DNA of 64,000 nt from Alistipes sp. Its GTDB lineage: Bacteria; Bacteroidota; Bacteroidia; Bacteroidales; Rikenellaceae. Position 1 is the first letter of the stretch. The number at the start of each line of letters is the position of its first letter. A program made the translations under genes and the position numbers. The notes beneath the pieces were generated by a model, which did no database searches, was not told the DNA's origin, and saw nothing but the letters and a program-made list of their open reading frames with translations. The DNA lies in contig JAGCMF010000001.1 in assembly GCA_017646625.1 (NCBI GenBank), positions 32,895 to 96,894 on the forward strand. The letters are read 5' to 3'. Positions 8,237 to 63,715 of the stretch are shown here, piece by piece.

Positions 8237-8246
8237 TTAAGTTATG

Positions 8247-8281
8247 AAGGGCTGACTAATTTACTTTTTAGTCAGCCCCTT
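8247..8281 (+). terminator. Hairpin H, copy 1 (terminator-like)
   Basis: AAGGGCTGACTAA pairs with TTAGTCAGCCCCTT across a loop containing TTTACTTT. It ends the hut operon and also lies between convergent genes. The same hairpin recurs at 17474, 41756 and 50215. Confidence 0.7.
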
Positions 8282-17463: not shown

Positions 17464-17473
17464 CCAACATATG

Positions 17474-17507
17474 AAGGGCTGACTAAAAACTTTTTAGTCA
17501 GCCCCTT
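17474..17507 (+). terminator. Hairpin H, copy 2 (terminator-like)
   Basis: AAGGGCTGACTAA and TTAGTCAGCCCCTT form a strong stem followed by TTCTTTTC. It lies between the convergent transporter and htpG genes and could stop both transcripts. Confidence 0.75.
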
Positions 17508-19796: not shown

Positions 19797-21587
19797 ATGA
19801 AGAATATTCGTAACTTTTGTATTATCGCACACATCGACCACGGTAAGAGTACTCTTGCTGACCGTCTGCTCGAGAAGACAAATACGCTAAATCAGCGTGA
19901 GATGCAGGCACAGGTGTTGGACGATATGGATTTGGAACGCGAGAAGGGTATCACCATCAAGAGCCACGCCATACAGATGGAGTATAAGGCGCAGGATGGC
20001 CAGAAGTATACCCTAAACCTTATCGATACCCCAGGACACGTAGACTTCTCGTATGAGGTGTCACGTGCTATTGCATCATGCGAGGGTGCACTCCTCGTTG
20101 TCGACGCTACGCAGGGTATCCAGGCGCAGACAATCTCGAACCTATATCTCGCCCTCGGCCAGGACCTTGAGATTGTCCCTGTGCTCAACAAGATAGATTG
20201 TGAGTCGGCGATGATTGATGAGGTTAAGGATCAGATTATCGACCTTATAGGCTGCAAGGAGGAGGATATCCTCTTGGCCTCTGGTAAGACAGGCCAGGGT
20301 GTTGAGGAGGTGCTCGAGGCTATCGTGGAACGTATTCCTGCGCCCGAGGGTGATGAGAATGCACCTCTCCAGGCCCTCATCTTCGACTCTGTGTTCAACC
20401 CCTTCCGCGGTGTCATCGCCTACTTCCGTGTCTTCAATGGCACAATACGTAAGGGTGACCATGTTAAGTTCTTCAATACGGGTAGCGAGTATGATGCCGA
20501 TGAGATTGGTGTTCTCAAGCTCAAGATGAGTGAACGTGGCGAGGTCAAGGCTGGTGACGTGGGTTACATCTGTTCTGGTATTAAGAACTCAACGGATGTT
20601 AAGGTGGGTGATACCATCACCTCTGTTGCTAACCCTTGTGTGGAGTCTATTGCAGGTTTCGAGGATGTTAAGCCTATGGTCTTTGCGGGTGTATATCCTG
20701 TTGAGGCTGACCAGTATGAGGATTTGCGTGCCTCGTTGGAGAAGCTTAAGCTCAACGATGCATCGCTTACCTTCGAGCCAGAGAGCTCTTTGGCCCTCGG
20801 CTTCGGCTTCCGTTGTGGCTTCCTCGGCCTGTTGCATATGGAGATTATCCAGGAACGTCTCTATCGTGAGTTCGATATGGATGTCATCACTACCGTGCCT
20901 AACGTGTCGTACCACATAACAACGACACAGGGTGAGGAGCTCGAGGTGCACAACCCGTCGGGTCTTCCAGAGATTACCAAGGTTGCAAAGATTGAGGAGC
21001 CTTATATCCTCGCACAGATTATCACCAAGTCCGACTTCTTGGGTAATGTGCTCAAGCTATGTATCGACAAGCGCGGTGTCATGAAGAATCAGACCTTCAT
21101 CACGCAGGATCGTGTGGAGGTGAACTTCGAGATGCCTCTCTCGGAGATTGTCTTCGACTTCTATGATAAGCTTAAGAGTATCTCGAAGGGTTACGCCTCA
21201 TTCGACTACCACCGTACTGGCTATCAGCCAAGTAAGCTTGCGAAACTCGATATATTGCTCAATGGCGAGGCTGTGGATGCGCTGTCATCACTCATATATG
21301 CCGACCATGCCTACGACTTCGGTCGTAAGATGTGTGAGAAGCTCAAGGAGCTCATCCCCCGTCAGCAGTTCGATATCGCCATCCAGGCGGCTATCGGTGC
21401 CAAGATTATCGCCCGCGAGACTGTTAAGGCTGTGCGTAAGGATGTTACGGCAAAGTGTTACGGTGGTGATATCTCACGTAAGCGTAAGCTTCTTGAGAAG
21501 CAGAAGGCTGGTAAGAAGCGTATGCGCCAGATAGGTTCGGTGCAGGTGCCACAGTCTGCCTTCCTTGCTGTATTGAAGATGGATTAA
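19797..21587 (+). CDS. lepA: Elongation factor 4 (LepA)
   Basis: A ribosome-associated translational GTPase of 596 residues. G1 AHIDHGKST is at residues 10-18, the DTPGHVDF G3 motif near 80, and NKID G4 near 132. EF-G-like domains and the LepA-specific C-terminal domain follow, ending in [20 protein letters not shown]. Length and order are normal. The TAA stop is directly abutted by a family A repeat. It is apparently monocistronic. Confidence 0.97.
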
Positions 21588-21673
21588 TCTCTTGTGATAA
21601 GGGGCTATTATGACCCTGCCAAAATTTCGGCTATGGGATGTACGTGAAGTATGCCCCATCGCCGAAAAATTTT
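21585..21673 (+). repeat. Family A structured repeat, right-truncated copy (A0)
   Basis: Starts at the lepA stop codon with TAATCTCTTGTGATAAGGGG. It keeps the left hairpin and the central stem (TTTCGGC at 21625-21631 against GCCGAAA at 21661-21667) around the conserved inner GTACGTGAAGTAT hairpin, but lacks the right hairpin and right end. The fucosidase start follows 26 bases later, so the element separates two genes on the same strand. Confidence 0.8.
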
Positions 21674-31817: not shown

Positions 31818-31825
31818 TAAGTGGT
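31804..31825 (+). repeat. Family A repeat relic (left end only)
   Basis: TAAATTTCTTGTGATAAG at 31804-31821 matches the left end of family A with one extra A, then runs directly into a family D array. The rest of the element is missing. Confidence 0.65.
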
Positions 31826-31826
31826 C

Positions 31827-31985
31827 ACTCTCGAGTACCAAAGGTCACAAAAGGTCATAAAAGGTCATAAAAGGTTACAAAAGGTTACAAAAGGTATGCG
31901 TTGTCTCTAACCCTTTTTGCCCTTTGTGACCCTTTCTGCCCTTTTTCACTCTCGAGTACCAAAGTCTCTCTGTCTCGTTGTCTCT
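31827..31985. repeat. Family D array D1
   Basis: Two copies of the core CACTCTCGAGTACCAAAG (about 31828 and 31948) flank tandem units such as AAAAGGTCAT and, inverted, ACCCTTTTTGCCCTTTGTG. The region between the HEAT-like gene and radA holds nothing else recognisable. The arms could pair as a long imperfect hairpin. Confidence 0.7.
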
Positions 31986-36834: not shown

Positions 36835-37743
36835 ATGATTAAACCTACACTCTTGGTATTGGCTGCGGGCATGGGTTCGCGCTACGGATCACTCAAGCAG
36901 ATGGATGGCGTAGGCCCTAATGGCGAGGCTATCATCGACTACTCGGTATATGATGCTATACGTGCCGGCTTCGGTAAGGTTGTCTTCGTCATTCGTCACT
37001 CTTTTGAGGCTGACTTCAAGGAGGTATTCAATGCAGAACGCTTCGGTGGTAAGATAGCTGTGGAGTATGTATTTCAGGAACTCGACTACCTCCCCGAGGG
37101 CTTTGCTGTCCCCGAGGGTCGTGTTAAGCCATGGGGTACCAACCACGCTGTTATGATGGCTGCCAAGGCTATAAACGAGCCATTTGCTGTAATCAACGCC
37201 GATGACTTCTACGGCCGTGAGGCATATGTTACTATTGGAGACTATCTACGTACCCTTGAGGGTAGTGAGGCACGCTACTGCATGGTAGGCTACGAGGTGT
37301 CGAAGACCCTTTCGGAGAATGGCACAGTGTCGCGTGGCGTATGCACAGTTGACAACAACGGTAACCTCACAGGCATGGTGGAACGTACACAGATAGAACG
37401 TGTTAATGGTACTATCCTTTTCCACGATGGCGGTGCTGATGAGCCTCTTGCCGAGAATACTCCTGTCTCGATGAATCTCTTCGGCTTCACCCCCGACTAC
37501 TTCCGCTACTCCGAGGCATTCTTCAAGGAGTTCCTTGCTGCAAACATCGAGAATCTCAAGTCCGAGTTCTTCATCCCTCTCATGGTTAATAAGGTTATCA
37601 GCGAGGGCACAGCCACTATGCGTGTTCTTCCTACCACCTCCGACTGGTTTGGCGTAACCTATAAGGAGGATAAGCCATATCTTGTTGCCAAGATTGAGGA
37701 GTTCATTGAGGCGGGGGTATATCCACGTAATCTCTGGAAGTAA
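36835..37743 (+). CDS. Sugar-phosphate nucleotidyltransferase family protein
   Basis: A 302-residue Rossmann-type NTP transferase. It opens MIKPTLLVLAAGMGSRYGSL with the GxGxR-like phosphate loop, then VFVIRHSFEADFKEVF, and the nucleotide/metal site NADDFYGREAY. The family makes NDP-sugars or related activated compounds; the acceptor here is unknown. The ATG at 36835 was chosen because the promoter lies inside the longer possible frame. Its TAA stop is directly followed by a family A repeat. Confidence 0.85.
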   Translation: MIKPTLLVLAAGMGSRYGSLKQMDGVGPNGEAIIDYSVYDAIRAGFGKVVFVIRHSFEADFKEVFNAERFGGKIAVEYVFQELDYLPEGFAVPEGRVKPWGTNHAVMMAAKAINEPFAVINADDFYGREAYVTIGDYLRTLEGSEARYCMVGYEVSKTLSENGTVSRGVCTVDNNGNLTGMVERTQIERVNGTILFHDGGADEPLAENTPVSMNLFGFTPDYFRYSEAFFKEFLAANIENLKSEFFIPLMVNKVISEGTATMRVLPTTSDWFGVTYKEDKPYLVAKIEEFIEAGVYPRNLWK

Positions 37744-37872
37744 TTTCTTGTGATAAGGGGTCGATTGCGGCCCCTAACAAAAAATTGCCGTCAATGGGAC
37801 GTACGTCAAGTACTACCCATCGACGGCATTTTTGCCGAGTGTAGCACTCGGCACCCTTCTAACAAGAAATTT
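37741..37872 (+). repeat. Family A structured repeat, copy A1
   Basis: Complete copy starting at the upstream stop codon. Outer arms are AATTTCTTGT and ACAAGAAATT. The left hairpin is GGGG...CCCC, the central stem GCCGTC (37787-37792) with GACGGC (37822-37827) around an inner GTAC/GTAC hairpin, and the right hairpin GCCGAGTG/CACTCGGC. It is nearly identical to copy A6 at 60165. Confidence 0.9.
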
Positions 37873-37995
37873 CATGTGATAAGGGGTCATTCTCGACCTC
37901 TCAATCATTCGGCTGAATGGGAAATACGCCAAGTATGACCCATCCAGCCGAATTTCTTTATCGAGGCCAAGCCTGACCCCTTCTGACAAGAAATT
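37869..37995 (+). repeat. Family A structured repeat, copy A2
   Basis: Directly joined to A1, sharing the bases around AAATTT. The central stem is TTCGGCTG (37908-37915) with CAGCCGAA (37945-37952), and the inner hairpin is ATAC/GTAT instead of GTAC/GTAC. Right hairpin AGGC/GCCT. It closely matches copy A4 behind dnaA. Confidence 0.9.
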
Positions 37996-38126
37996 GGTCT
38001 CACGCTGGGTAAGTGGTCGTCTGCAACCTCTCAATCATTACCCCGAATGGGACGTACGTCAAGTACTACCCATCGGTGGCTTTTTCATGTCAGAGCCAAA
38101 TCTGACGCCCTTCTAACAAGAAATTG
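37996..38126 (+). repeat. Family A structured repeat, copy A3 (diverged left end)
   Basis: The left end is changed to GGTCTCACGCTGGGTAAG, but the inner GTACGTCAAGTAC core, the right hairpin GTCAGA/TCTGAC and the right end CTTCTAACAAGAAATT are intact. It is followed by GGTATCACGATGGTTAGG, also found after copy A7. Confidence 0.8.
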
Positions 38127-38325
38127 GGTATCACGATGGTTAGGTAGGTCAAGACAAAGAGACAATATATTACCTTTTATGCCCTTTTATGACGTTTTAT
38201 GCCCCTTGGTACCCGAGAATGAAAAGGGCATAAAGTGTCACAAGGGGCAGAAGGGTAAGAAATATACCTTTTATTCCCTTTTATGACGCTTTATGCCCTA
38301 TTTCTCGCGTTGTCTCTCTCTTCCC
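38127..38325. repeat. Family D array D2
   Basis: A left arm of CTTTTATGCCC-type units, the core CTTGGTACCCGAGAATGA near 38206, and a right arm of AAGGGCATAA-type units, then another inverted set. GAGACAA-type sequence marks its start. No gene is present. Confidence 0.7.
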
Positions 38326-38329
38326 AAAA

Positions 38330-38368
38330 AAAGATAGGAGCACCCAACTGCAGATGGGTGCTCCTTGC
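38330..38368 (-). terminator. Terminator of the DUF6562 surface protein gene
   Basis: GGAGCACCCA and TGGGTGCTCC form a strong stem; on the minus strand it is followed by TATCTTTTTTT. Confidence 0.8.
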
Positions 38369-38437
38369 GCAACACAAATTAACAAATCTGAAAGCAATAA
38401 AGAACGATGTGTTGCTTGGTGTTAGTAGTTCGCTACT

Positions 38438-41699: not shown

Positions 41700-41850
41700 A
41701 TTTTCGAAAAGGTCACAGTAAAAGGGCATAAAAGGTCACTCTCTTTGGTTATGGGGGGGCTGGCTATGTTACTTTTTAGTCAGCCCCTTTTATTCCCTTT
41801 TATGACGCTTTATGCCCTTTTATCTCACGTTGTCTCTCTATCCCTCTGAT
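41700..41850. repeat. Family D array D3 split by hairpin H
   Basis: AAAGGGCATAAAAGGTCA units (about 41720-41740) and TTTTATGACGCTTTATGCCC units (about 41790-41822) flank hairpin H. With D1 and D2 this shows the arms can surround different cores. Confidence 0.6.
41756..41792 (+). terminator. Hairpin H, copy 3
   Basis: GGGGCTGGCTA pairs with TAGTCAGCCCC around a loop ending TTACTTTT and is followed by TTTTATT on the plus strand. A run of seven G starts the stem. No plus-strand gene precedes it, so it may be part of the repeat rather than a terminator for a gene. Confidence 0.55.
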
Positions 41851-48322: not shown

Positions 48323-49723
48323 ATGGCGCAAATGGAGAGATATACCGAGGTGTGGCAAGACTGCCTCGATAGACTTCGCCTGACAATCACCGAAGAGGAG
48401 TTTGTCAAGTGGTTCCAGCCCATCCGCCCTATAGGCTTCGATGGCGCGAACCTCCAGCTACGTGTGCCCAACGAGAGTTTCATGGTTAGCATAGAACGTC
48501 GCTACTTGCAGCATCTAAAACCTATAGTATCAGAACTATATGGTGCTGAAACACAGATACATTATGCTGTGCCACGACGTTCACAACCCGCCGTTGATAC
48601 AAGCAGCTCGGCAGTGCCTCACTTTACAGCGCCTACCGACACTGCAAATATAAAAAATCCTTTTGTAATTCCAGGCCTCCGTCGTATAATGTACGACCCA
48701 CAGCTCAACCCAAACTACACCTTCGATAACCATATCGAGGGTGAGTGCAACCGTCTGGCACGTTCTGCGGGTATGGCCGTGGCAGTGACACCTGGCAACA
48801 ACGCCTTCAATCCACTATACATCTATGGCGACTCGGGTCTCGGTAAGACTCATATCGTGCAGGCCATAGGTCAGGAGGTGCGTCAGCGCCACCCCGAGCT
48901 TCAGGTGCTCTACGTCTCGATGAACAAGTTCCAGGCGCAGTTCCAGACGGCATATAAGAATGGCGAAATTACCGACTTCATACACTTCTATCAGATGGTC
49001 GACGTGCTCATCATCGACGACATCCAGGAGCTCACAGGTAAGACCGGTACCCAGAATGCCTTCTTCAATATCTTCAACCATCTGCAGCTCGCTGGTAAGC
49101 AGCTAATCCTCACATCCGACAAGCCCCCTGTGGAGCTTAAGGATATAGAGCAGCGTCTACTCACTCGCTTTAAGTGGGGTCTGTCGGCATACTTGAGTGT
49201 CCCCGACTACGAGACAAAGGTTAAGATTATACGTGCCAAGGCACAGCGCCATGGCGCTAATATCCCCGAGGAGGTTGTCGCATACCTTGCCGAAAACATC
49301 TCGGCGAATGTGCGCGAGATTGAGGGTGCCCTATCATCCCTCATCGCCAATGCCTCATTCCTCGGCCGCAAGATAACAATCTCGCTGGCGAAGGATATCC
49401 TCAAGGTATATGTCAAGCTCACGCAGCGCGAGATTACTATAGACCATATTGTCAAGACGGTATGCGACTACTATAACATCGAGCTTGACACCTTTAACTC
49501 GGCAAAGCGAACACGCGATGTTGCACAGGCACGCCAGGTTGCTATGTATCTTGCAAAGCAGCATACCAAGGCACCACTGACAGTCATAGGCTCATCTATA
49601 GGTGGTCGTAACCATGCCACCGTACTCCATAGCTGTAAGGCTGTTGCCGATATGATTGATACTGACAAGCAGTTTAAGGGGCAGATAGATGAGATAGAGA
49701 GGATTGTGCTCGGCAAAAACTAA
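48323..49723 (+). CDS. dnaA: Chromosomal replication initiator protein DnaA
   Basis: The AAA+ initiator of replication, 466 residues from the ATG at 48323. Domain I (about 1-80) has YTEVWQDCLDRLRLTI, a short linker follows, the AAA+ domain carries Walker A GDSGLGKTH near residue 172 and Walker B VLIIDDIQ near 232, and the C-terminal domain IV ends with the DnaA signature IGGRNHATVLHSCKAV. An earlier in-frame ATG at 48293 and a TTG at 48242 precede this start; 48323 was chosen by alignment to known N-termini. The TAA stop abuts a family A repeat. Confidence 0.95.
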   Translation: MAQMERYTEVWQDCLDRLRLTITEEEFVKWFQPIRPIGFDGANLQLRVPNESFMVSIERRYLQHLKPIVSELYGAETQIHYAVPRRSQPAVDTSSSAVPHFTAPTDTANIKNPFVIPGLRRIMYDPQLNPNYTFDNHIEGECNRLARSAGMAVAVTPGNNAFNPLYIYGDSGLGKTHIVQAIGQEVRQRHPELQVLYVSMNKFQAQFQTAYKNGEITDFIHFYQMVDVLIIDDIQELTGKTGTQNAFFNIFNHLQLAGKQLILTSDKPPVELKDIEQRLLTRFKWGLSAYLSVPDYETKVKIIRAKAQRHGANIPEEVVAYLAENISANVREIEGALSSLIANASFLGRKITISLAKDILKVYVKLTQREITIDHIVKTVCDYYNIELDTFNSAKRTRDVAQARQVAMYLAKQHTKAPLTVIGSSIGGRNHATVLHSCKAVADMIDTDKQFKGQIDEIERIVLGKN

Positions 49724-49849
49724 TTTCATGTGATAAGGGGTCATTCTCGACCTCTCAATCATTCGGCTGAATGGGAAATACGTATAGTATGTCCCATCCA
49801 GCCGAATCTCTTTATCGAGGCCAAGCCTGACCCCTTCTGACAAGAAATT
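49721..49849 (+). repeat. Family A structured repeat, copy A4
   Basis: Starts at the dnaA stop codon (TAATTTCATGTGATAAGGGG). The central stem is TTCGGCTG (49762-49769) with CAGCCGAA (49799-49806), the inner hairpin ATAC/GTAT with loop GTATA. It is almost identical to A2, 12 kb away. Confidence 0.9.
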
Positions 49850-49954
49850 GGTCTCACGATGGCGAGGTTGAAAATATTTGAGCTCTTCAATCAAAGCCAC
49901 CAATGGGACGTACGTCAAGTACTACCCATCGGTGGCAATTTCTTTATCGAGGCA
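49850..49954 (+). repeat. Family A structured repeat, copy A5 (truncated)
   Basis: Lacks the standard left end and stops inside the right hairpin, where family D sequence begins. The central stem is GCCACC (49896-49901) with GGTGGC (49931-49936) around the GTACGTCAAGTAC core. Confidence 0.8.
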
Positions 49955-50200
49955 GAAAGGGCAAAAGGGTCAGAAGGGTCAGAAGGGTTAGAAGGGTCAG
50001 AAAGGTTAGAAGGGTCAGAAAGGTTAGAGACAGAGATAACACCTTACCTTTTATGACGCTTTATGCCCCTTGGCGCTATAAATAGCAATGTCAGCGACAA
50101 CGTCTAACCTTTTATGACGCTTTATGACGTTTTATGCCCCTTGGTACCAGAGAACGAAAAAAGGTCAGAAAGGTCAATTTAAACCGGGCCATGCTACAAC
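49955..50200. repeat. Family D array D4
   Basis: Nine-base units of the type AAGGGTCAG / AAGGGTTAG run in tandem at about 49956-50025, followed by inverted CCTTTTATGACG units and the core TTGGTACCAGAGAACGA near 50140. No gene is visible between dnaA and dsbD. Confidence 0.75.
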
Positions 50201-50214
50201 CTCCCCAAAATATG

Positions 50215-50248
50215 AAGGGATGACTAATTTACTTTTTAGTCATCCCTT
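50215..50248 (+). terminator. Hairpin H, copy 4
   Basis: AAGGGATGACTAA pairs with TTAGTCATCCCTT; relative to copies 1 and 2 a C-G pair has become A-T on both sides, so pairing is kept. It lies between convergent dnaA and dsbD. Confidence 0.7.
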
Positions 50249-58412: not shown

Positions 58413-60167
58413 ATGAAAAATCTTTTGAAAGTGAGTGCAGTACTCGCAGTTGCGGTATTGACCCTCTCAAGCTGTAATTGCTTCAAGAAGATGGCCAAGA
58501 ACCGTGATGATGTGCAGCTTACATGCACTCCTGAGGTTTTGGTACTTAACAACGGCGTCGTTGAGGCTGATGTTACTGTGAACTTCCCAGTTAAGTACTT
58601 CAATGCCAAGGCAGTATTGAAGGTTACTCCCGTTATGGTATTCGAAGGCGGCGAGGTAGCAGGCACAACACAGTATTTCCAGGGTTCAAAGGTTGATGAC
58701 AACTACACAGTTATCGACAAGAACAATGGTGGTACATACACTATGCACGTATCATTCCCATACGATGCACGTATGGCATGCAGCCAGCTCCAGCTTCGTG
58801 CGGAGATTAAGTGCCCAAAGGGTGGTTGCAAGGAGTTCACATTGGTTAACTTGAACACAGGTGCTATTCCTACAAAGGATGAGGCAGCTATCTTGGCAGC
58901 TGGTGGCGACGATGCATTGGCATTGAAGCGTGCTTTCGGTTTGACTATCGCCGAGGGTGTTAACACATTGCAGTCAGACCTCGACTATGCCTCTGCAATG
59001 CAGAACATGGCATCTGGTTATAAGAATGTTATCACCGAGGTGACACGTGCTAACTACATGTATGCTATCAACTCATCACGTCTTGCACGTAGCGCAAAGT
59101 CAAGCGACGAGCTCACAGCATTCCAGCAGTTGGCAGCAGATCAGATGTCTAACGATCGCATCGCACAGCACATCTACGTAAACGGTTATGCTTCACCTGA
59201 TGGTCCAGAGAAGTTCAACGATCGTCTTGCTGCTGCACGTAGCGAGTCAGGTCGCAAGGCTGCAGAGGAGTTGCTCAGCGAGATTGGCTTGTCACTCGAC
59301 GCTGCATCTTATGGTGAGGACTGGGAGGGCTTCAAGGCTCTTGTTGCTGCTTCAGACATCGAGGACAAGGAGCTTATCCTTTCAGTGTTGAACAGCTATG
59401 AGTCATCATCAGAGCGCGAGGAGCAGATTAAGAATATGTCACAGGTATTCGAGGCATTGAAGCGTGACATCCTTCCACAGTTGCGTCGTGCACAGCTCGT
59501 TAACTCTTCAGACATCACAGGTAAGACTGACGATGAGATGGCTGCTTTCGTACGTGAGGGTAACTTCGCAGCTTTGGATGAGAAGGAGATGCTTCACATC
59601 GCCTCTACAGACAAGCTCACATTGAACGAGAAGATCGCCGTTTTGGAGGCTGCAGCAAACGAGTATAAGAGTGCTACTGCTTACAACAACCTTGGTGTAG
59701 CATATGCCGAGGCTGGTGAGGGCGAGAAGGCAGCTGCTGCTTTTGCTTCAGCGGTAAATGCTGGTGGCAATGCATCAGAGCTCAACAACAACCTTGCACT
59801 TGTTAACCTTATGAACGGTAACACAGCTGCTGCGAAGGCATACACAGCAAATGCTTCAGTCGAGGCACGTGCTCTTGCTGCTGCTGCCGAGGGTAACTAC
59901 GCACAGGCGCAGTCACAGCTCTCTGGCTACAACGCTGCTATCGCTGCTACCATGAACGCTGACTACACAGCTGCAAAGCAGTTCATCGCAAACGACACTA
60001 CTGCCGAGGCTGACTACCTCCGTGCTGTTATCGCATCAAAGCAGGGTGACATGGCTACTGCCGAGGCACAGCTTAAGAGTGCTATTGCGAAGGATGCGTC
60101 ATACGCAGACCGTTGCCGTCAGGATGTAAATCTTCGTGGTTACATTGGTAAGGAGATCAACCTTTAA
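58413..60167 (+). CDS. OmpA-like/TPR lipoprotein
   Basis: A 584-residue protein with a lipoprotein signal (VSAVLAVAVLTLSSC, Cys near 21). A beta-rich N-terminal part (about 30-160) is followed by an OmpA-like peptidoglycan-binding pattern (IYVNGYASPDGPEKFNDRLAAARSE shortened: YVNGYASPDG then RLAAARS). The C-terminal third is helical with TPR-like repeats (AYNNLGVAYAEAGEGEKAAA). Codon use indicates high expression. It may tether the outer membrane to the cell wall; relatives are common in Bacteroidetes. Its stop codon abuts a family A repeat. Confidence 0.8.
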   Translation: MKNLLKVSAVLAVAVLTLSSCNCFKKMAKNRDDVQLTCTPEVLVLNNGVVEADVTVNFPVKYFNAKAVLKVTPVMVFEGGEVAGTTQYFQGSKVDDNYTVIDKNNGGTYTMHVSFPYDARMACSQLQLRAEIKCPKGGCKEFTLVNLNTGAIPTKDEAAILAAGGDDALALKRAFGLTIAEGVNTLQSDLDYASAMQNMASGYKNVITEVTRANYMYAINSSRLARSAKSSDELTAFQQLAADQMSNDRIAQHIYVNGYASPDGPEKFNDRLAAARSESGRKAAEELLSEIGLSLDAASYGEDWEGFKALVAASDIEDKELILSVLNSYESSSEREEQIKNMSQVFEALKRDILPQLRRAQLVNSSDITGKTDDEMAAFVREGNFAALDEKEMLHIASTDKLTLNEKIAVLEAAANEYKSATAYNNLGVAYAEAGEGEKAAAAFASAVNAGGNASELNNNLALVNLMNGNTAAAKAYTANASVEARALAAAAEGNYAQAQSQLSGYNAAIAATMNADYTAAKQFIANDTTAEADYLRAVIASKQGDMATAEAQLKSAIAKDASYADRCRQDVNLRGYIGKEINL

Positions 60168-60293
60168 TTTCTTGTGATAAGGGGTCGATTGCGGCCCCTA
60201 ACTAAAATGCCGTCAATGGGACGTACGCCAAGTACTACCCATCGACGGCATTTTTGCCGAGTGTAGCACTCGGCACCCTTCTGACAAGAAATT
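60165..60293 (+). repeat. Family A structured repeat, copy A6
   Basis: Begins at the upstream stop codon. The central stem is GCCGTC (60209-60214) with GACGGC (60244-60249), the inner hairpin GTAC/GTAC with loop GCCAA. It is nearly identical to A1, 22 kb away. Confidence 0.9.
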
Positions 60294-60421
60294 TAATTTC
60301 TCGTGATAGCGGCGCATCTGCGACGCTTCAATCAAACGCCAGAATGGAATGTACGTCAAGTACTATCCATCCTGGCTTTTTTCATGTCAGCGCCACATCT
60401 GCACCACTCTGACAAGAAATT
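60294..60421 (+). repeat. Family A structured repeat, copy A7
   Basis: Directly follows A6 with ends AATTTCTCGTGATAG and CTCTGACAAGAAATTG. The central stem is GCCAG (60338-60342) with CTGGC (60372-60376); the adjoining GGG/CCC pair is GGA/TCC here, again keeping pairing. The left hairpin is GCG-CGCA/TGCG-CGC. Confidence 0.88.
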
Positions 60422-60424
60422 GGT

Positions 60425-60795
60425 ATCACGATGGTTAGGTAGGTCAAGACAATGAGACACAGCGACCCAGAGACAATGCATTACCTTTTATGCCCTTTTA
60501 TGACGTTTTATGCCCTTTGCTACCCGAGAATAAAAAGGGGCACAAAGGGCACAAGGGGCACAAAGGTTAGAGACAATGAGACAGTTAGACATAGCGACCA
60601 AGAGACAATGTATTACCTTTTATGCCCTTTTATGCCCTTTTGTGCCCTTTGGTACCCGAGAATGAAAAAAGGGCAAAAAGGTCACAAGGGGCAGAAAGGT
60701 TAGAGACAATGAGACAGTTAGACATATCGACCAAGAGACAATGTATTACCTTTTATGCCCTTTTTTGACCTTTTGTGCCCTTTGTCCGTGTAGTA
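60425..60795. repeat. Family D array D5, three tandem units
   Basis: Units of about 124-133 bp begin at about 60446, 60570 and 60703 with GAGACAATGAGACA. Each has ATTACCTTTTATGCCC arms, and the first two keep the core TACCCGAGAAT and AAGGGGCACAA arms. The rest of the gap to 61008 holds only a weak -7 box (TATCTTCG at 60854-60861) and a leader of about 145 bases. Confidence 0.8.
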
Positions 60796-61007
60796 AGGGG
60801 GAGGTATAGACGATTTTTCTTACACTTTTTTCGTCAATATAGAATTTTTTGTTTATCTTCGCATCGAAAATGCGCGTGTGTCTAATTACGTATTATAGAT
60901 GCTGAATGATATTCTATTGCGTCATGGATATGTGCGTTAGGAGGGTATAATTAATTGGTATATTAATATAGATAACTTTACTTTATAATCACTAATTTTT
61001 AAACACA

Positions 61008-63494: not shown

Positions 63495-63715
63495 GTAAGG
63501 AGAGAGGCAGAGGGACACAGCGAGGTTGGGTATCAAAGGGCATAAAACGTCATAAAAGGGCACAAAAGGTGGGGCGTTGATGCGGACTTTTGTTTTTACC
63601 TTTTCTGACCCTTCTGCCCTTTGTGCCCTTTGTGCCCTTTTCATTCTCGGGTGTCAAGGGGCATAAAACGTCATAAAAGGTATCGCATTGTCTCTTTGTC
63701 TCAATACTGCCCCCG
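63495..63715. repeat. Family D array D6
   Basis: TCAAAGGGCATAAAACGTCA and CTTTTCTGACCCTTCTGCCC type arms surround a middle segment; a core TTCTCGGGTGTCAAGGGG is at about 63643. Sequence ends with CATTGTCTCTTTGTCTC, the inverse of the GAGACAA boundary. Confidence 0.7.

Follow-up and report, generated by a model that had tools for sequence, protein, structure and literature searches.

Dispersed repeats at stop codons of Alistipes and its relatives carry a structure selected on the bottom strand

A stretch of 64,000 nucleotides from Alistipes sp., hereafter the window (positions 32895-96894 of contig C18 in the source genome, G000), contains eight copies of a repeat of about 130 bp, called family A. 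The question raised by this locus is what such a repeat is selected for, on which of its two strands, and how copies of it came to lie behind several genes. In the initial annotation, the copies were described as sharing inverted ends and three hairpins with covarying stems, which was taken to mean that a structure in RNA or in single-stranded DNA is selected. The analysis confirmed the repeat and showed its pairing to be selected. What that reading missed is that the selected structure is the one of the opposite strand, where it is mostly a single long hairpin, and that the copies lie at stop codons and have a genus-wide spread.

Copies in the window and in the source genome

The source assembly measures 1.865 Mb in 37 contigs and is 90.7% complete. 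All eight copies were present in the window at their annotated positions, each on the + strand; the gene names used here and below (dnaA, lepA, dnaJ and homoserine dehydrogenase) rest on Pfam. At the lepA stop codon (21585-21587), a partial copy (21585..21673) comprised the left arm and the core hairpin followed by an A/T run, without a right arm, and scored 48.7 bits with model R2, which was built with the bottom-strand structure described below. An array of three copies started at the TAA of an open frame ending at 37743: the first (37741..37871) belonged to a class with three hairpins on the + strand, the second (37868..37995) had both arms and formed one long hairpin, and the third (37994..38125) was a mosaic with the right arm, no left outer arm and a mismatched core stem. 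Behind dnaA, a copy with both arms (49721..49849) began at the TAA stop (49721-49723) and was followed by a second unit (49850..49945) made of the core hairpin only, without outer arms. The remaining array began at the TAA of an open frame ending at 60167 and consisted of a copy of the three-hairpin class (60165..60293) and a second unit that formed one long hairpin (60294..60422), each with both arms.

When these copies were compared with their earlier description, inverted ends were confirmed in 37741, 37869, 49721, 60165 and 60294, where both outer arms were present, whereas the right arm was missing from 21585, the left one from 37996 and both from 49850. Three hairpins were found in the minimum-energy + strand fold of 37741 and 60165 only; the copies at 37867, 49721 and 60291, which also have both arms, folded on the + strand into one long hairpin. 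The central stem did covary, but its pairing, thought to hold in every copy, was not universal, as each of the six pairs was broken or gapped in 2-5 of the 35 own-genome copies, for example in the mosaic copy 37996 (ACCCCG vs GGTGGC). The covariation of the inner GTAC/ATAC hairpin was borne out by a wider alignment, with G-C in 44 and A-U in 31 of 75 copies.

A genome-wide search revealed that the copies were not confined to the window. The core ATGGGACGTACGTCAAGTACTACCCAT was matched 35 times in the whole assembly at up to 3 mismatches, compared to 0 matches of the reversed control, and the fetched loci contained 37 core places when up to 6 mismatches were allowed. As several copies lay near the ends of contigs (C13, C14, C23, C24, C25, C31, C32 and C34), the copy number in the assembly is probably an underestimate. 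In alignment A2, the left and right core arms did not match in the mosaic copies at 37994-38125, C8_119824, C13_64541 and C17_11841, which look as if they had been recombined inside the conserved core.

Structure of the bottom strand

For the structural analysis, 184 places were collected, 51 from the source genome (not every model match in it), 29 from genus relatives and 104 from named contigs; some of them are one copy met twice (e.g. L084 and L125), and not every weak match was taken. The stretches found with the core pattern were metagenome assemblies labelled Alistipes sp. or Rikenellaceae, and the host, where given in the title, was a ruminant (80 listed of at least 112). The outer-stem register was present in 146 of the 184 places, and seven copies with an R1 match on the other strand were reoriented by hand using the arm motif. 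From 143 unique sequences, 82 clusters were obtained, the representatives of which are related by descent and so not independent; of the 82, 78 passed the length limit, and 75 of these 78 entered alignment A6, the omitted ones being L281:1446-1575, L085 and L110, the last of which is one of two that fold better on the + strand. Alignment A7, which mixes both strands of palindromic matches, was left out.

When the + strand alignment of the 35 own-genome copies was folded with RNAalifold, only the central hairpin was obtained, with 15 pairs, 9 of them with double changes, whereas the - strand alignment of 75 copies yielded 34 pairs, 28 of them with double changes. After four outer pairs had been added by hand, the resulting 38-pair structure had 93.8% of its cells paired in the 75 copies, compared to 71.8% in shuffled alignments, with compensatory double changes in 31 of the 38 pairs and a score of 0.578 against 0.183 after shuffling. 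Pairing fell to 40-50% when the partner was slid by 1-3 columns, and the observed value of none of five measures was reached in 500 shuffles.

Most full copies form a single imperfect hairpin of ~130 nt on the bottom strand, that is, antisense to the upstream gene. The fold energy was better on the - strand in 80 of the 82 representatives with RNA parameters (mean -68.5 vs -53.4 kcal/mol) and in all 82 with DNA parameters, and the - strand folds among those listed were strikingly uniform, with one long hairpin; the two representatives that folded slightly better on the + strand were both of the three-hairpin class. The mismatches pointed in the same direction. In the outer two helices of the 82 representatives, + strand mismatches were A-C in 70 cases and G-T in 14, and are therefore wobble pairs on the - strand. 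Over the whole structure, the bottom strand had 292 G-U and 36 A-C cells among 2843, with G-U commoner in 20 columns and A-C in 7; column pair 60/91 supplied 67 of the 292 G-U cells, and without it the values were 225 and 35. In core pairs 4-15, however, the + strand had 43 G-T and 33 A-C, so that the core has no strand bias or a slightly inverse one, and the strand signal is due to the arms and column pair 60/91.

Continuing selection was assayed with sister pairs, for which 142 unique copies were grouped into 61 disjoint pairs, 75-99.5% identical. Single stem changes on the bottom strand were between Watson-Crick and G-U pairs in 78 cases and between Watson-Crick and A-C in 23 (p = 4e-8; 61 sister pairs), in a test whose structure was derived from the same copies; a further 52 changes were between Watson-Crick pairs and other mismatches, and 105 were double changes from one Watson-Crick pair to another. 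The G-U excess was present both from G-C (40 vs 12) and from A-U (38 vs 11) and thus cannot be explained by a C-to-T bias on one strand. Pairing between arms could also be maintained by templated repair, that is, by quasi-palindrome correction instead of selection, and a few copies do have perfectly matched outer arms (22/22 in L169 and 18 paired in a row in L012). Such repair would be blind to the strand, yet the single changes favoured G-U on the bottom strand, and mismatches persisted at two positions (unpaired in 71 and 78 of 91 non-redundant copies), which makes this explanation very improbable. The bottom-strand structure is therefore under continuing selection, and the strand folding, the covariation and the sister-pair changes together strongly support the earlier claim that structure is selected, be it in RNA or in single-stranded DNA.

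The hairpin begins with an outer helix of ~10 bp, the sequence of which changes freely (column 6: GC 34, CG 26, TA 20 and AT 8 of 91), followed by a 3x3 loop, most commonly CAG opposite ATC, and a helix of ~9 bp. This helix is followed in many of the copies by a tandem G-A internal loop (ATCT is present in both + strand arms in 41 of 91), and beyond it lie further helices and then the core. In the tip stem of the core, UAC/GUA, the U-A and A-U pairs were identical in 75 of 75 copies; the search pattern for the tip stem required TA, and its invariance rests on A6, with copies found by core-containing models. The terminal loop was mostly of 5 nt, e.g. GTCAA on the + strand, and one G-U pair was nearly fixed (62 of 75). 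The class of 37741 and 60165 has two local side hairpins instead.

Copies with other interiors were also met. In L254 and L257, both behind lepA, and in L293-L297, a different core hairpin (CTCATTTACG...AGTAAACT.CG and variants) was found within similar arms or beside a copy, as if interiors had been exchanged as modules. L293, L294, L296 and L297 belong to a dispersed composite that is larger (~250-330 bp), has ends similar to GAGAGTGAATAAGAAG / CTTTTTATTCACTCTC and includes both a variant copy of family A and another hairpin.

Position at stop codons

The position of the copies was analysed in 143 elements with unique flanks and an outer stem, 129 of them first in their array, a status partly based on a short motif list; open frames of at least 240 nt were considered. 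In 99 of the 129 first-of-array copies, the upstream frame had its stop codon inside the outer stem or no more than 6 nt ahead of it, exactly one stop-codon register was shared by 56 of the 129, and 9 of the 129 had no such frame within 320 nt. In L018 and L166, from two genomes, the stem overlapped the coding end and enclosed the stop, and its right arm matched this coding end. The copies are thus located at stop codons and, consequently, in a fixed orientation to the upstream gene, a placement that could be due to selection instead of targeting. The next downstream open frame was convergent in 60 cases and co-directional in 59, and the contig ended first in 20.

These counts bear on the possibility that the bottom strand is transcribed and that the copies are structured antisense RNAs, the hairpin of which would work in place, e.g. 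as a target of RNase III or of a protein at the 3' end of the upstream gene, with the spread as a by-product. G-U wobbles and tandem G-A loops are usual in RNA. Accordance with this role was found in the G-U cells (292 of 2843), in the nearly fixed G-U pair, in the tandem G-A loops and in the strong covariation. However, convergent downstream frames were no commoner than co-directional ones, and so are not a general source of bottom-strand transcription; no promoter-like sequence common to the copies was seen in their right flanks, which differ (the motif counted there, GG(T)NGTG within 28 nt of the right end, was present in 34 of 138), and some copies are truncated. Taken together, we regard an antisense RNA as somewhat improbable.

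On the + strand, at least 5 T were present in the 8 nt after the core in 123 of 160 unique cores, compared to 67 of 160 on the - strand, and the excess was smaller for runs of at least 4 T (69 of 160 vs 42 of 160). The copies may therefore act as gene-end terminators, as predicted from these T-rich stretches. An explanation confined to this function would have them as portable gene-end elements kept for the benefit of the host. The + strand core hairpin and the T-rich stretch would then form an intrinsic terminator, and the outer arms would merely result from the way in which such terminators are copied between genes. It agrees with the stop-codon position and with the T-rich stretch after 123 of the 160 cores; when inspected by eye, the relatives G022 and G017, which have no copy behind dnaA, showed an ordinary hairpin plus T-run after this gene, and some truncated copies retained the core and a T run. 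It gives no reason, however, for arms that are kept pairable on the bottom strand, and only 69 of the 160 cores have a run of at least 4 T behind them, so that we consider it unlikely as the whole account.

Dispersal, mobilising enzyme and known elements

In the source genome, 43 pairs of copies were at least 95% identical, and their left flanks had a median identity of 0.58 compared to a background of 0.57; 6 of the 43 pairs lay inside the larger composite and shared left flanks (0.65-0.80). Behind dnaA, an R2 match was detected in 4 of the 10 closest genomes, own included, and in none of 20 less closely related genomes (30 loci); behind lepA, in 6 of the 9 closest genomes, one of them partial, and in 0 of 21 others (30 loci), often with a different interior. 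DnaA ends in ...GKN in G000 as well as in two relatives without a copy. As the left flanks of almost identical copies are dissimilar and a copy is present in some close relatives but not in others, the element disperses, and the comparison of both loci indicates a turnover of position as well as of content. Neither a target-site duplication nor an exact empty site could be demonstrated from flanks inspected by eye, with one genome per species.

Model R1 matched 19 of 37 genus genomes (own included), 0 of 24 others and 0 of 148 other genomes elsewhere in the order. With R2, matches were obtained in 67 of 101 genus genomes, with up to 34 candidates scored per genome, and in 1 of 197 genomes from the rest of the order, with 17 candidates scored in each. 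This single genome, from another family, had tandem units of differing sequence, the best of which started at the dnaJ stop codon and had the same long bottom-strand fold (-65.5 vs -44.6 kcal/mol); a unit on another contig lay ~4 nt behind the homoserine dehydrogenase stop. No R2 match was found in 394 genomes from the rest of the phylum, a search of low sensitivity with 8 candidates scored per genome, and searches of viral contigs with exact patterns gave 0 and 0 copies. The spread is therefore limited to a clade.

The window had been said to lack a RAYT, a transposase and a reverse transcriptase, and no Y1/RAYT or reverse transcriptase was detected in the whole 90.7% complete assembly either. 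Y1 transposase (PF01797) was found in 0 of 37 genus genomes, which are incomplete assemblies, compared to 19 of 24 other genomes of the order. Reverse transcriptase (PF00078) was absent from 14 of the 19 R1-positive genus genomes, the source genome included, and present in the other 5 and in 9 of the 24 R2 carriers among the 37 genus genomes. An incomplete assembly could hide an enzyme in one genome, less easily in all of them.

The explanation that we prefer, and to which we would give an even chance, is that family A is a non-autonomous mobile hairpin which acts through its folded bottom strand and doubles as a predicted gene-end terminator. The dispersal and the strand-specific selection suggest the folded bottom strand as the substrate, which a trans-supplied enzyme would recognise by its shape and not by its terminal sequence. 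The element would be copied into other sites, where its left end would lie at a stop codon or adjacent to one, through a single-stranded intermediate that is more likely to be DNA than RNA, because most of the carrier genomes tested were without reverse transcriptase. On the gene strand, the core hairpin, often followed by the T-rich stretch, would allow an inserted copy to end the upstream transcript, and this terminator role would explain why insertions at gene ends are tolerated.

Recombination sites of integrons were considered as a further possibility, in which the copies would resemble attC sites, located behind genes, folded as bottom-strand DNA and used by a tyrosine recombinase. Sites of the attC type lie directly behind open reading frames, as family A does. 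The palindromic structure of attC sites is conserved without conservation of the sequence, and it is their bottom strand that functions, folded as single-stranded DNA (PMC4792948). The geometry of family A is similar. The integron integrase model TIGR02249 matched 60 of 61 genomes, in 59 of them only below the cut-off, and also matched all 14 controls; the sub-cut-off matches seem to be ordinary tyrosine recombinases, and enzymes of this kind thus seem to be present. However, 0 of 37 genus genomes had an integrase over the cut-off, and the sole genome that did lies outside the family; no AAC triplet occurred in the invariant or nearly invariant columns of A6; the upstream genes include dnaA and lepA and are not cassettes, and tandem units follow each other without intervening genes. 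We therefore judge a relation to integrons highly unlikely.

A comparison with other known systems was also made. As for the earlier statement that the repeat belongs to no known family, it holds for Rfam, where no match reached the gathering score in the window. In a permissive Rfam search of 37700-38400, the matches on the repeat were far below the cut-offs; the better-scoring ones were miRNA-type models on neighbouring 10-bp repeats and were rejected. The structured RNAs of Bacteroidales in Rfam likewise have a covarying structure, but family A has no gathering-score match. No published account of these repeats was found in a limited search of the open-licence literature.

Like ERIC, YPAL, RUP and Correia elements, family A is non-autonomous, non-coding, shorter than 200 bp and present in many intergenic copies, the transcripts of which would be highly base-paired (PMC2229807). 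For YPAL, filled and empty sites have been reported (PMC2229807). In most of these elements, the terminal inverted repeats have a fixed sequence, the ends are TA and the target site is duplicated, whereas the terminal sequence of family A varies with compensation, as in column 6, and its copies start at a stop codon, in one orientation, with the bottom strand selected. REP and REPIN sequences are also dispersed imperfect palindromes and are thought to be moved as single-stranded hairpins (PMC2817692, PMC6006769). REPs measure 21-65 nt, have GT[AG]G at their foot and are associated with a Y1 transposase (PMC6006769, PMC2817692), whereas in family A no conserved GT[AG]G foot was seen by eye in A2 or A6, GTAG being present only inside the core of one class, and the Y1 transposase was the one missing from the genus genomes. 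Family A thus differs in at least one defining feature from ERIC/YPAL/RUP, from REPIN and from attC, and agrees only with the broad MITE-like description of a short dispersed palindrome.

Tentatively, the mobile hairpin could represent a novel class of element, with a bottom strand recognised by shape, insertion at stop codons and an enzyme unrelated to Y1 transposases, reverse transcriptases or integron integrases, and its age could exceed that of a single bacterial family. Bacteria commonly carry small palindromic repeats, and the movement of most of them is an open question. In family A, the strand-specific selection reveals a functional single strand and the stop-codon register reveals the destination, and both make the mechanism testable. 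If insertion does target stop codons, it would amount to a safe-harbour strategy, by which genes would at the same time be provided with terminators.

Other repeats were observed around the copies. The GG(T)NGTG motif near the right end was followed in places by short G-rich tandem repeats, e.g. TTAGGGAGA. A second repeat family with 9-10-bp steps (CCTTTTATGCCC... / AAGGGGCA...), forming in places tandem units of 132-133 bp, was present behind the arrays and elsewhere in the window (38158-38320, 50037-50160, 60469-60801, 31825-31945 and 63520-63681). A repeated hairpin (GGGCTGACTAA...TTAGTCAGCCC) was located at 8243-8278, 17470-17505, 41751-41786 and 50211-50246, and a similar hairpin was found beside the composite L297.
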